Assembly (NCBI GenBank): GCA_021158225.1
Contig: JAGGUZ010000026.1
Span: 1-48,653 of the forward strand
Reading direction: 5' to 3'
From: a bacterium
GTDB lineage: Bacteria; Patescibacteriota; Gracilibacteria; UBA1369; PNNO01
DNA: 48,653 bases
Shown here: piece after piece, positions 25,092 through 29,061 of the stretch
Layout of the letters: each line of letters begins with the position of its first letter
Numbering within the stretch: the first letter of the stretch is position 1
Position numbers and translations under genes: made by a program
The notes under the pieces: model-generated
Database searches by the model: none
What the model was told of the DNA's origin: nothing
The model's input: the letters and a program-made list of their open reading frames with translations, nothing else

Positions 25092-25499
25092 TCATTTATT
25101 CTTCTTATAATCTTCTATCGCATTTTTAATTGAATTTATAGCTATTTCAGCACATTCATATTTCATTCTCGGAAGCCCTTTATCTCCTTCTTTATAAAAA
25201 TCAAGGACATCATCAAGGGTAAATTTTTGTGCATCATTCAATGACTTTCCCTTTGACATTTCTGTAATCGCCGAACCTGATGAAGCGGAACCTACACATC
25301 CCGTATAGAGAAATTTAGCATCTTTAATTATATCGTCATCAATTTTTAAATATGTGATAATTATATCTCCACAATCACCAACAGCTTCACCTTTAGCATC
25401 AAAATCTTTTATTTCCCCAACATTTTTTGACTCATTAACATATATAATAGCTTTATCTGAAAATCCTGATTTTTTTAATAATTCTATGTTAAACGGCAT
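25092..25499 (-). CDS. IscU/NifU-like Fe-S cluster scaffold
   Basis: The 135-residue protein keeps the three scaffold cysteines in family context: GDCGDIIITYLKID (about residue 43), LYTGCVGSASSGSAITEM (about 68) and MKYECAEIAINSIKNAIEDY (about 112), with the usual terminal helix. The Asp beside the first Cys is also present (GDCGD). It is therefore a probable assembly scaffold for iron-sulfur clusters. No cysteine desulfurase is adjacent, unlike classical isc or suf operons. It lies downstream of the ArsR/TauE cassette on the same strand, with a 62-nt gap that holds a possible promoter, so its link to the cassette is uncertain. Confidence 0.85.
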   Translation of the reverse strand: MPFNIELLKKSGFSDKAIIYVNESKNVGEIKDFDAKGEAVGDCGDIIITYLKIDDDIIKDAKFLYTGCVGSASSGSAITEMSKGKSLNDAQKFTLDDVLDFYKEGDKGLPRMKYECAEIAINSIKNAIEDYKKNK

Positions 25500-25516
25500 A
25501 TATAAATTTGGTTAGA

Positions 25517-25536
25517 TTAGATCTAAATAAATTATA
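25517..25536 (-). promoter_or_regulatory. possible promoter and palindrome upstream of the IscU-like gene
   Basis: Minus-strand TATAAT (25536-25531) lacks a good -35. Just after it, at the expected start point, is the perfect palindrome TTAGATCTAA (25517-25526), which could be an operator. A separate TTGACA at 25549-25544 is wrongly spaced for this -10. Confidence 0.35.
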
Positions 25537-25561
25537 ACATTCGTGTCAATAGCCTGGTTAA

Positions 25562-25771
25562 TTAAGCCAACATAAATATTTTTGCCGAAACTACAATTAG
25601 AGCAATACCTATTAAAACCTGAAATGGTTTTCGCCAGCTTTTTGGAAAAAACAAGTTTGTAAATTCAAAGATATAATGTATCCCTGTCCATAAACCCGCC
25701 CCAAGTAAAATAACCCATAGAAAAATATTTATTGCATCAAAAATCGACATACCAAACAGAAACAACAGCAT
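25562..25771 (-). CDS. small two-helix membrane protein
   Basis: The 69-residue hydrophobic protein (62 residues if the internal ATG at 25750, MSIFDAINIFLW, is used) has two membrane helices (about 14-30 and 48-66) flanking a short loop with NLFFPKSWRKPF. No cysteine, His pair or known signature is seen. It overlaps the preceding 37-residue ORF by 35 or 14 nt, so it belongs to the ArsR/TauE cassette. I prefer the shorter form but cannot decide. Family not recognised. Confidence 0.55.
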   Translation of the reverse strand: MLLFLFGMSIFDAINIFLWVILLGAGLWTGIHYIFEFTNLFFPKSWRKPFQVLIGIALIVVSAKIFMLA

Positions 25772-25850
25772 AAGAATCGTAAAATTTGATATTAACCCCT
25801 GCAGTTACAATTCCTACCACCAACATGGTGAGAATAAGTAATTGTGCCAT
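25737..25850 (-). CDS. possible 37-residue single-helix membrane peptide
   Basis: Not in the ORF track because of its length. ATG 25850 follows the TauE/SafE stop by 11 nt. The product begins MAQLLILTMLVVGIVTAGVN, a clear membrane helix, and ends with an aromatic tail (SYAVVSVWYVDF). Its stop overlaps the start of the next small membrane protein. Tight spacing inside an operon is the main support. It could be a small transporter subunit or a chance ORF. Confidence 0.45.
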   Translation of the reverse strand: MAQLLILTMLVVGIVTAGVNIKFYDSYAVVSVWYVDF

Positions 25851-25861
25851 AATAAAATCGG

Positions 25862-26647
25862 TTAAATAATATTAATAATCATCCATAAAGATGCGGAAAC
25901 AAGAAGGATGGCAAGTCCAACCCTTAAAAACTTTTCATTCATTTTCGCATGTAACCGAGCTCCAATTTGAGATCCGAATAAAACAAAAATTCCAATTATA
26001 ATACACAATTCCCAGTCTATTCCTCCTCTTGCAACATGCCCAATAAATCCCATTAAAGAAGAGACAAATATCAAAATCGTGTTTGTTCCCATTGCTATTT
26101 TTATCGGCATACCACCCAAAATTATTGCAATTGGGATAATTAATCCGCCACCGGAGATACCAATCATCCCGGCTAAAAATCCAACCAAGCCCACGCTAGT
26201 TAAGAGATAAAGTAAATGAGCGTCATATTCTCCTGCCGACAACTTTCTATGCCAAACTCCAAATGAGCCAAGTTTAACTTTAATATTTTTGTTTAGAAAT
26301 AATAAAAAAGCGGAAATAAGAAGAAAAATCGCAAAAGTAATCTTTAAATAAATTTCAGGAATGCCAAAAGAGACAAATCCTCCAAGAAATGAAAAGACAG
26401 CAATCACAAATACCAGTACTAAAGCCAAATTCCAATCTATAAGTTTATGCTTACGTGAATAAACAAATGCCATTGAAAGTCCCTGCAGAGAAATAAGAAA
26501 CAAACTAACTCCGGCAGCATCATAAAATGTAACCGGCAACAAAGCTAAAATCGCAAGCAAGTAGAAACTCCCCCCACCTTTTCCGAAGATAGAAAAAACA
26601 AGAGAGATTAAAAAGATTACGATAGATGTCAGAGCAATTTCATTCAT
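25862..26647 (-). CDS. TauE/SafE family membrane transporter
   Basis: The 261-residue protein has about eight membrane helices arranged as two halves, each with the family glycine-rich segment. These are FGKGGGSFYLLAIL at the N-terminus and GFLAGMIGISGGGLIIPIAIILGGMP in the second half. TauE/SafE proteins move sulfite, sulfoacetate, thiosulfate or other small anions. Here it follows an ArsR regulator and a redox disulfide protein, so a sulfur-related or metalloid-thiol substrate is a reasonable guess but unproven. The start is 3 nt after the stop of the 42-residue ORF. Confidence 0.85.
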   Translation of the reverse strand: MNEIALTSIVIFLISLVFSIFGKGGGSFYLLAILALLPVTFYDAAGVSLFLISLQGLSMAFVYSRKHKLIDWNLALVLVFVIAVFSFLGGFVSFGIPEIYLKITFAIFLLISAFLLFLNKNIKVKLGSFGVWHRKLSAGEYDAHLLYLLTSVGLVGFLAGMIGISGGGLIIPIAIILGGMPIKIAMGTNTILIFVSSLMGFIGHVARGGIDWELCIIIGIFVLFGSQIGARLHAKMNEKFLRVGLAILLVSASLWMIINII

Positions 26648-26650
26648 ATT

Positions 26651-26779
26651 TTAACTAAACCAGTGTTTAACATGCGGTGTAAAATGTAAATATAACATCA
26701 AAATCGGAGCCTGAAAAAGCGCAACAATCGCCGGAACAATTGACATATACATTCCCTTTTCACCAAATACTGCAACCAT
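26651..26779 (-). CDS. 42-residue membrane ORF overlapping the disulfide-protein gene out of frame
   Basis: Too short for the ORF track. ATG 26779 lies inside the upstream gene in another frame, exactly where the thioredoxin-like domain should end (...DEIKGWL). Its stop is 3 nt before the TauE/SafE start. The product (MVAVFGEKGMYMSIVPAIVA, then a Leu/Met-rich helix and HFTPHVKHWFS) looks like a natural membrane segment. The competing frame is an implausible Arg/Cys-rich tail. It is therefore probably the real coding frame here: either a small protein or a remnant joined by a frameshift. Confidence 0.5.
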   Translation of the reverse strand: MVAVFGEKGMYMSIVPAIVALFQAPILMLYLHFTPHVKHWFS

Positions 26780-27000
26780 CCTTTAATTTCATCAATGCTC
26801 GCAATTCTTCCCGCGGTTTTAATATCATCTCCGATTACGAGTGCAGGAGAACTCATAACGCCATAATCAACAATTTCATTTACATCTGTAATATAGTCAA
26901 TCTCAACATCATGTAATTCTAACTGTTTGATAGTCTCTTCAGCATTATGTTTAAGCAACTGGCAACTTGGGCATCCTGAGCCTAAAACCTTAATAATCAT
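26698..27000 (-). CDS. redox-active disulfide protein (small thioredoxin fold, TM0996/MTH895-like)
   Basis: The 100-residue ORF begins IIKVLGSGCPSCQLLKHNAEE, with a CPSC active site at residues 10-13, and has the family cis-Pro segment YGVMSSPALVIGDDI. Members usually stop after about 77 residues, near EIKGWL. The last 24 residues here (basic, FRRLLRFFRLRF) look like out-of-frame translation. Either the stop codon was lost, or the gene is frameshifted onto the overlapping 42-residue ORF. The start overlaps the ArsR stop by ATGA. Such proteins accompany permeases and ArsR regulators in many genomes and handle thiol-disulfide exchange. Confidence 0.8.
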   Translation of the reverse strand: MIIKVLGSGCPSCQLLKHNAEETIKQLELHDVEIDYITDVNEIVDYGVMSSPALVIGDDIKTAGRIASIDEIKGWLQYLVKRECICQLFRRLLRFFRLRF

Positions 27001-27299
27001 GATAAAAAATGATTAAGAATATCATTATATTTTGCAATTTCTTTATTGTTCAATTTATAAGTTACTTTAAGACCTTTTTTTTCCGATGAAACCAATTTTA
27101 AATCTTTAAGTGTCTTTAAATGATGAGAAGCAAGATTTTGAGGGATTTGTAAAGCCTGCCAAATATCGCATACACAAAGCTCACCACCTTTAAGCAAACA
27201 AAGAATTTTAAGCCTATTTTCATCCCCTATTATCTTTAAGAATTTTTGTAGATCATTAATTGATTTTTTGCCTTTTTGTGAGAAACAACTAAATTGCAT
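26997..27299 (-). CDS. ArsR/SmtB-family repressor with CxC metal site
   Basis: The 100-residue winged-helix protein has the helix-3 metal motif ELCVCDI, as in As(III)/Sb(III)-sensing ArsR and the cadmium sensor CadC. A recognition helix follows (NLASHHLKTLKDLKLV) and a beta wing (SEKKGLKVTYKLN). An extra Cys at position 5 of the N-terminus (MQFSCF) could be a third thiolate ligand. It should bind the perfect palindrome just upstream and repress its own operon until thiophilic metal, metalloid or persulfide binds. The stop overlaps the disulfide-protein start. Confidence 0.9.
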   Translation of the reverse strand: MQFSCFSQKGKKSINDLQKFLKIIGDENRLKILCLLKGGELCVCDIWQALQIPQNLASHHLKTLKDLKLVSSEKKGLKVTYKLNNKEIAKYNDILNHFLS

Positions 27300-27305
27300 A
27301 GCAAA

Positions 27306-27329
27306 TATATATCAATACTAATTGATATA
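27306..27329 (-). promoter_or_regulatory. ArsR operator overlapping a leaderless promoter
   Basis: TATATCAAT-ACTA-ATTGATATA (27308-27329) is a perfect 9-4-9 inverted repeat of the size and AT-rich character of ArsR/SmtB operators. It ends 8 nt before the ArsR ATG (27299). A minus-strand TATATA (27311-27306), 6 nt before the ATG, overlaps it, so repressor binding would block the polymerase. Confidence 0.75.
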
Positions 27330-27351
27330 GTATATCCTAACAAAAGCTCGG

Positions 27352-29061
27352 TCAAGACAATTTCTCGTCTGCTGAATCAATTAATCTGAAATAAAGTTTT
27401 TGCATATATTCACGGAGTAGTCGCGCCGTACAAAAACTATCCATTACCATAATTCGAGAATTTTGCATATATTTTACCCATTTCTCAGGCACACCAGAAT
27501 TATTACAATCGTAATACATCGGCACAATCTTACTATGTAACGTAGCAAGGATACTCTCAGTTACGTCATCACTATCTATATACCAACCTACATTAGTCAA
27601 ATTTACTTCATCAACCCAACCATCTTTTGTGCTAAAAGGCAAAGAACCATTTATTGCAGCCTTCATCCCACTTGTACCACATGCTTCAAAACCAACAATC
27701 GGCGTATTAAGCCAAACATCACAACCCGCTGTAAGCTTTTTTGCCAACTCCATACCATATTCCGGCAAATATACAACACTGCCGGAGAGCTCGTGTTTTA
27801 TTAAAGATTTAAGTTTTTCAAGCATGGCAATTCCATCCCCATCGTCCAAATGAGGCACACCGGAAACAACAAGGTGCACAGGCCTGCCCGCATCCTGCGC
27901 AATCTTTTTAAACTCCTCGACATCATCCAGCACGGCAAACGGACGTTTATATGCAACAAAACGCCTAGCCCAGCCAATAAGCAGCTCATTTCTTCCCCAT
28001 TTAACGCCAGTTTTGTCTTTAATATACGAAAGCAACTCGGCTTTTTCTTCCTGATGTTTTTTCCAAAATCTACTAACCTGCGAAACATCGATATTAACTT
28101 TATCCCACGTTTTTACATGTATTCCATTGGTTATACCGACCATCTGATAATCCGGCCAAATCTCGAGAGCCTTTTTTGCATGCAATTTACTTACTGCACT
28201 TGTAACTCCGGACATACGTAAAAGTAGCATAGTCATTGAGAACATACTCGACTCCTGAACTGATCCAAGTTTTACAAGATCGGCAAGAGGGATCTTAATT
28301 TGATTCGCATATCTGGCAAGTAAAAGTGAGACAAGATCGTTACTGTAAACCTCATAGCCCGCGCTTACAAGCGTGTGATTGGTAAAGGCCACACGTTTTT
28401 TAACAAATTGCTCCGCTTCCTCAAGAGTTAAATCTTTATCTTCAATTTCATGACGAATCAATTCAAATACCAGCATTGCGGAATGTCCCTCGTTTAGATG
28501 ATACACGGAAGGCTTAATCTTAAGCACTTCAAGAAGGCGTAAACCGCCTATTCCAAGAACAATTTCCTGTTTTAGACGAGCTTCTTTATTCCCAACATAA
28601 AGACAATCGGTTATTTCCCTATCAATTTCCGTATTTCCATCAACATTTGTATCCAACATATATACTGAATTTTCGCCTTGTTTAAATTCCCAAGTTTGTA
28701 CAAGCACATCATGATCCTGTATTGGTACACGGATAATCAGATTCTCTTTTTTTTCATTTAAAACAGGTTTAAAATCAACTCTCTCCGGGGCATGGCGAAC
28801 AGTCACTTTTACAACCTTCCCGGAATTATCACTATATCCTTTGTGATAATAAAGCCCAAGAGCAACAAAGGGAACCTTTCTATCGGCAGCTTCACGAACG
28901 ATATCGCCCGCCAAAATACCAAGTCCGCCAGCATATGTTTTTATATTTTTTTTAAGAGCATACTCGGCACAAAAATACGCAATCGGATGTTTCTTAATAT
29001 ATTTAAATTGCTTTTCTGAGCGCTGTGTATCAAACCAGCTACATTCTTGTTTGTAATTCAT
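27352..29061 (-). CDS. glgP: glycogen/alpha-glucan phosphorylase (short GT35 type)
   Basis: GlgP releases glucose-1-phosphate from glycogen. The 569-residue protein is much shorter than the 800 or so residues of E. coli GlgP. The motifs EACGTSGMKAAINGSLPFSTKDGW (PLP and phosphate region, about residues 450-475) and FCAEYALKK...YAGGLGILAGD near the N-terminus match the compact bacterial/archaeal alpha-glucan phosphorylase group. YHLNEGHSAM and VFTNHTLVSAGYE-like segments (AFTNHTLVSAGYE) are also present. The start is 8 nt after the glgA stop, forming a glgA-glgP operon for both synthesis and breakdown of glycogen. Confidence 0.92.
   Translation of the reverse strand: MNYKQECSWFDTQRSEKQFKYIKKHPIAYFCAEYALKKNIKTYAGGLGILAGDIVREAADRKVPFVALGLYYHKGYSDNSGKVVKVTVRHAPERVDFKPVLNEKKENLIIRVPIQDHDVLVQTWEFKQGENSVYMLDTNVDGNTEIDREITDCLYVGNKEARLKQEIVLGIGGLRLLEVLKIKPSVYHLNEGHSAMLVFELIRHEIEDKDLTLEEAEQFVKKRVAFTNHTLVSAGYEVYSNDLVSLLLARYANQIKIPLADLVKLGSVQESSMFSMTMLLLRMSGVTSAVSKLHAKKALEIWPDYQMVGITNGIHVKTWDKVNIDVSQVSRFWKKHQEEKAELLSYIKDKTGVKWGRNELLIGWARRFVAYKRPFAVLDDVEEFKKIAQDAGRPVHLVVSGVPHLDDGDGIAMLEKLKSLIKHELSGSVVYLPEYGMELAKKLTAGCDVWLNTPIVGFEACGTSGMKAAINGSLPFSTKDGWVDEVNLTNVGWYIDSDDVTESILATLHSKIVPMYYDCNNSGVPEKWVKYMQNSRIMVMDSFCTARLLREYMQKLYFRLIDSADEKLS

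Follow-up and report, generated by a model that had tools for sequence, protein, structure and literature searches.

We propose that the cassette at 25092-27329 of the window (the whole 48,653-nucleotide stretch of DNA analyzed here) is probably a metal(loid)-responsive, ArsR-repressed efflux operon, in which a TauE/SafE (TSUP) family transporter takes the slot of an ArsP_1 permease and a second TSUP gene has decayed. Judged from its genes and operator, the cassette would belong to a known kind, the widespread Patescibacterial combination of ArsR, an MTH895/ArsE thioredoxin and an exporter; what appears new is the exchange of the exporter.

Composition of the cassette

The window corresponds to an entire contig of a 990,274-base (0.99-Mb) genome, and the sampled relatives have similarly small genomes; judged from genome size and gene content, the phylum is probably Patescibacteria. 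The initial annotation described a palindrome followed by ArsR, a CPSC thioredoxin, TauE, three small ORFs and a NifU/IscU-like scaffold, and we recovered all of them at 25092-27329 on the minus strand. The tight spacing it reported was found as well, with an ATGA overlap between the ArsR and thioredoxin genes, 3 nt before the TauE gene and 11 nt after it. The features are as follows:

27327-27355, minus strand: putative sigma-70 promoter TTGACC-17-TACTAT (9/12 match), its -10 element overlapped by the operator
27308-27329, no strand assigned: predicted ArsR operator, perfect palindrome TATATCAATTAGTATTGATATA with the core ATCAA-N6-TTGAT, conserved upstream of arsR
26997-27299, minus strand: arsR, ArsR/SmtB repressor with C5, C34 and C42-V-C44 (profile and motif alignment)
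26698-27000, minus strand: MTH895/ArsE-family thioredoxin-like protein with CPSC (profiles) and a non-coding-like read-through tail
26651-26743, minus strand: small ORF of 31 aa (42 aa from 26779) with one hydrophobic segment, coding-like
25862-26647, minus strand: TauE/SafE (TSUP) family transporter, 261 aa, in the ArsP_1 slot (PF01925)
25562-25850, minus strand: presumed remnant of a second TauE-like (TSUP) gene (homology to the intact 263-residue TSUP2)
25092-25499, minus strand: accessory NifU/IscU-like Fe-S scaffold with cysteines in GDCGD, TGCVG and YECAE (PF01592)

Profile searches place the main proteins clearly: ArsR scores 56.8 bits with PF01022 (cut-off 22) and 88 with NF033788 (cut-off 55; HTH_5 winged helix), the thioredoxin matches PF13192 and reaches 86.8 with TIGR00412 (cut-off 62), and TauE scores 139 bits with PF01925 (cut-off 32.6) over the full length of the profile (3-237 of 237). 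An alpha-glucan phosphorylase gene lies upstream of the cassette and a convergent cation:proton antiporter gene downstream. Contamination as the origin of the odd cassette is ruled out, since the contig's PNPase shares 82% identity with its counterpart in the genus-mate G002, and the contig is thus native to the genus.

The scaffold stands apart from the other genes. It is separated by 62 nt from the last small ORF, across which it may be co-transcribed. Its NifU_N domain is well supported (PF01592, 76.5 against a cut-off of 22) and the three ligand cysteines are present, while the scores stay below the named equivalog cut-offs (NifU_clost 97 vs 188; IscU 62 vs 192). The core nifU-nifS pair of the genome sits on another contig, the scaffold in the window being an extra copy. 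The earlier inclusion of an Fe-S scaffold in the cassette did not hold up in comparison: no NifU was present in the neighborhoods of cassettes from 20 relatives, enlarged up to 12 kb, and the genus-mates match the scaffold weakly (30-32%), at the level of core nifU.

The exporter slot

Searches with the thioredoxin spanned three sets of genomes, 89 from the order, 380 from the phylum and 334 from another class; this sample covers part of the phylum and represents other phyla by plasmid records alone. The neighbors of the best loci were then inspected. In 52 of 57 Patescibacterial thioredoxin loci the gene directly after the thioredoxin encodes an ArsP_1-type permease, an assignment confirmed with Pfam (PF03773) for six cassette representatives as well as the G002 and G003 permeases. 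By a distance rule ArsR was scored absent from 11 ArsP-bearing loci of this census; the same rule missed L027, where ArsR is present, so that ArsR counts are lower bounds. The exceptions comprise the window with TauE, G834 (L137/L157) with TSUP2-CDF-ArsP_1, G752 (L156) with a CDF exporter, and two unrelated thioredoxin genes. Among the plasmid-borne relatives in other phyla, several pair the thioredoxin with a gene annotated as a permease. In a FastTree phylogeny of ArsR and the thioredoxin, the window adjoins a clade of ArsR-thioredoxin-ArsP cassettes (local support 0.87).

In G834 (L157, 5030-8442) five genes, ArsR-thioredoxin-TauE-like-CDF-ArsP_1, stand behind the same operator and possibly form a multi-metal efflux unit. 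In G752 (L156, 585-2050) ArsR and the thioredoxin are followed by a CDF cation exporter, with no ArsP, which represents another exporter exchange.

Closer to the window, G002 carries ArsR, a zinc-ribbon protein and ArsP_1 in this order, and the family member G003 carries ArsR and ArsP_1. G001, G002, G003 and G006 each have one full-length ArsP_1; none was found in the genome of the window, which has split ArsP_1-like halves only, as do other members of the family. Such split half-size genes lie adjacent in G000 (contig 21, 3715-4397) and also in several other family genomes.

The TauE gene has a different distribution. Its relatives in the class and phylum are 22-40% identical and never lie beside ArsR or this thioredoxin; the gene-order check proposed in the initial annotation thus came out against a conserved linkage, and its placement in the slot rests on one genome, as no second ArsR-thioredoxin-TauE genome occurred among those searched. 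A search of genome contigs gave one distant match to TauE. Neither TauE nor TSUP2 had relatives in viral contigs and plasmids in a comparison at single-sequence sensitivity, and no related solved structure was found for either.

Compared with the ArsR-MTH895/ArsE-like thioredoxin-ArsP_1 cassettes, the window shares the CVC motif of ArsR, the thioredoxin family, the gene order, the tight spacing and the operator, but has TauE in place of ArsP_1, followed by what we read as a decayed second TSUP gene and by the accessory NifU. With the G834 operon it shares the ArsR-thioredoxin head and the operator, and the TSUP2 of G834 is an intact relative of the fragments in the window; G834, in contrast, lacks a TauE of the window type and has CDF and ArsP_1. 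Redox-active disulfide protein 2, of the same thioredoxin family, has been proposed as an ars-operon determinant (PMC2963123), yet the operons described there mostly contain arsC and CcdA, neither of which is present in the cassette of the window.

We consider it possible, albeit doubtful, that metal(loid) export is a role of TSUP (TauE-type) proteins, an idea that follows from their occurrence in the exporter slot of ArsR-thioredoxin units in the window and G834, in both cases without sulfur-oxidation genes. If true, thio-adducts or oxyanions of arsenic or metals would be the cargo of some 'sulfite exporters'. To our knowledge, where a role is known for TauE-family members, the substrates are sulfite and related anions rather than arsenic. 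By this exporter exchange, the large and mostly uncharacterized TSUP family becomes tied to an arsenic/metal-type regulatory unit, which makes guesses about its substrates testable.

Operator and ArsR sensing

The palindrome upstream of arsR is an exact inverted repeat with a 9-4-9 layout (TATATCAAT-TAGT-ATTGATATA). It is as perfect as previously annotated, although it spans 27308-27329 and is therefore slightly shorter than the 27306-27329 given before. Even when three mismatches were tolerated, 16 of 100 shuffled versions of the window yielded a match. The core, in turn, has a single exact copy in the whole 990,274-base genome. Among the ArsR-linked cassettes of the Patescibacterial sample, ATCAA-N6-TTGAT occurs upstream of arsR in 30 of 44 and is rare elsewhere within the same loci; the exact core also precedes arsR in G002 and G003, there in front of ArsR-ArsP. 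Such conservation goes well beyond what a palindrome arising by chance would show, and we regard it as the phylogenetic footprint of a functional operator; retention of the operator across distant genomes supports the proposed control of the cassette by ArsR. This ArsR operator is shared by many lineages of a phylum that has been poorly cultivated. The site of Bacillus subtilis AseR, TATATAACGATTTGCTTATATA, shares the layout of the window operator (PMC12607644), and our literature search found no published report of an ATCAA/TTGAT operator or of an MTH895-permease association. Promoter-like matches of 9/12 quality are equally frequent in shuffled sequence, making the putative promoter weak evidence when taken alone.

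Ten other cassettes of the 44 (L039, L046, L048, L049, L053, L056, L060, L065, L140 and L144) have ATGAA-N6-TTCAT upstream of arsR, a second operator class that suggests two ArsR DNA specificities. Three loci (L131 at 1429, L132 at 1791 and L135 at 1468) have a second copy of the operator core near the boundary between thioredoxin and permease.

The repressor carries the alpha-3 CxC thiolate metal(loid) motif, its ELCVCD aligning with the ELCVCD of CadC. Across the relatives C42 is retained in 44 of 44 and C44 in 43, compared with 34 for C34 and 20 for C5; the CxxC of the thioredoxin is likewise present in 44 of 44. The metal(loid)/thiol theme and the ArsR-thioredoxin pairing of the initial annotation are borne out by these data. 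BigR, in contrast, senses via a Cys42-Cys108 pair (PMC5823870); the ArsR of the window has no cysteine after residue 44, hence no equivalent of the second sensing cysteine near the C-terminus, and reaches 38 bits with the BigR equivalog (cut-off 155). Because the CVC motif is conserved and this C-terminal cysteine is absent, metal(loid) sensing appears favored over persulfide sensing, and the persulfide or sulfite stress originally suggested becomes the weaker reading. Literature on TsoR and on ArsR of Patescibacteria contributed nothing useful.

In the mechanism that we envisage, an ArsR dimer would occupy the palindrome at the -10 element, thereby blocking transcription. The inducer would be a thiophilic metal(loid), with As(III), a trivalent organoarsenical and Cd/Zn/Pb as the most likely candidates; once bound by C42/C44 (perhaps together with C5), it would release ArsR from the DNA. 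The CPSC thioredoxin might keep target thiols reduced or hand on a thiol-bound toxicant, and TauE would export the toxicant or its oxyanion or thio-adduct. The role of NifU, if co-transcribed, would be limited to helping replace damaged Fe-S clusters.

Small ORFs and competing explanations

The 37- and 69-residue ORFs, which overlap in different frames, both match one intact protein. This protein, TSUP2 (263 residues; PF01925 37 bits against 32.6), directly follows ArsR-thioredoxin in G834 and was searched in seven genomes of the order of G834. For the 37-residue ORF the match covers the first 35 residues of TSUP2 (E 3e-4), and for the 69-residue ORF it covers residues 31-55 (64% over 25 aa, E 5e-8) and 206-263 (50% over 58 aa, E 9e-20). 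A tblastn search of the whole window with TSUP2 returned both pieces in the right order (25850-25568) and in two frames. As the two ORFs correspond to the start and end of a single protein, the simplest reading is that they are the pieces of one decayed TauE-like gene, with residues 1-24 in the shorter ORF and, in the longer one, residues 27-55 fused to about 219-263. On this reading the gene suffered two defects: the reading frame shifts near 25783, at a run of T, and about residues 56-218 (about 163) have been lost in frame. The joint of the deletion, near 25697, falls between similar positions of the two halves of the TSUP protein, so recombination between internal repeats is its likely origin. 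An error in sequencing or assembly might account for the frameshift but is hardly a plausible source of the deletion.

The third small ORF is of another nature. The earlier annotation gave it 42 residues; the ORF is present, yet its start is more probably at 26743 (31 aa), where AAAAGGGA just upstream provides a plausible ribosome site. The family domain of the thioredoxin ends near residue 77 (about 26770), and the tail at 26701-26763 is non-coding-like in its own frame, scoring worse in codon use than all true pieces, whereas the overlapping frame of the small ORF scores as coding. The TauE gene starts 3 nt past the stop of this ORF, which suggests coupled translation of the two. No relative of the ORF was found in comparisons with ArsP, CDF, TSUP2 and all loci.

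The initial annotation took the tiny membrane ORFs for unrecognized transporter subunits. That they are real microprotein subunits of TauE, or that the 69-residue ORF is a functional half-size TSUP protein generated by in-frame recombination, we judge very unlikely. In coding score all three lie nearer to true coding sequence than do most spurious ORFs; the 69-residue ORF is also open, its codon use resembles that of true genes, and its deletion is in frame. Against this, the 37-residue ORF is cut off by a frameshift when compared with the intact homolog, the longer one lacks the greater part of its middle, and no fetched TauE or ArsR-thioredoxin locus has a comparable small ORF, contrary to the expected conservation in relatives. 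For two of the three ORFs, the claim of new small subunits can therefore not be upheld, and tiny membrane ORFs that resemble new subunits can, on this reading, be fragments of a decayed transporter. We consider it quite unlikely that ArsR and the thioredoxin alone form the unit, with TauE, the remnant and NifU placed behind them by chance in a small, gene-dense genome. The distance of NifU and the absence of a conserved TauE or NifU linkage in other genomes speak for such chance neighborhood; the overlapping or 3-nt spacing up to TauE, the intact relative of the remnant behind ArsR-thioredoxin in G834 and the predominance of exporters at the third position speak against it.

A reactive-sulfur operon, in which ArsR would sense persulfide or sulfide like BigR or SqrR, the thioredoxin would reduce persulfides and TauE would export sulfite or thiosulfate, is unlikely in our view. 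C34 of ArsR precedes the CVC motif in the region that we take to correspond to the first sensing cysteine of BigR, and a thioredoxin and an Fe-S scaffold are compatible with sulfur chemistry. The bigR operon (PMC5823870) and other sulfide-response operons include genes for TauE-related transporters. Indeed, the bigR operon of Xylella and Agrobacterium resembles the window in combining a winged-helix repressor at the -10 element with such a transporter (PMC5823870), but the window lacks its Cys42/Cys108 pair and the Blh sulfur dioxygenase and has an ars-type thioredoxin instead. Moreover, the cassette contains no persulfide dioxygenase, rhodanese or SQR, almost all relatives retain the CVC motif, and the same ArsR-thioredoxin-operator unit is tied elsewhere to ArsP and CDF exporters. 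A further variation concerns the thioredoxin itself: a CSCGGxC-type tail is missing from that of the window, and many cassette thioredoxins, among them those of L038, L040, L043 and L050, carry such a tail at their C-terminus, where it could bind metal.
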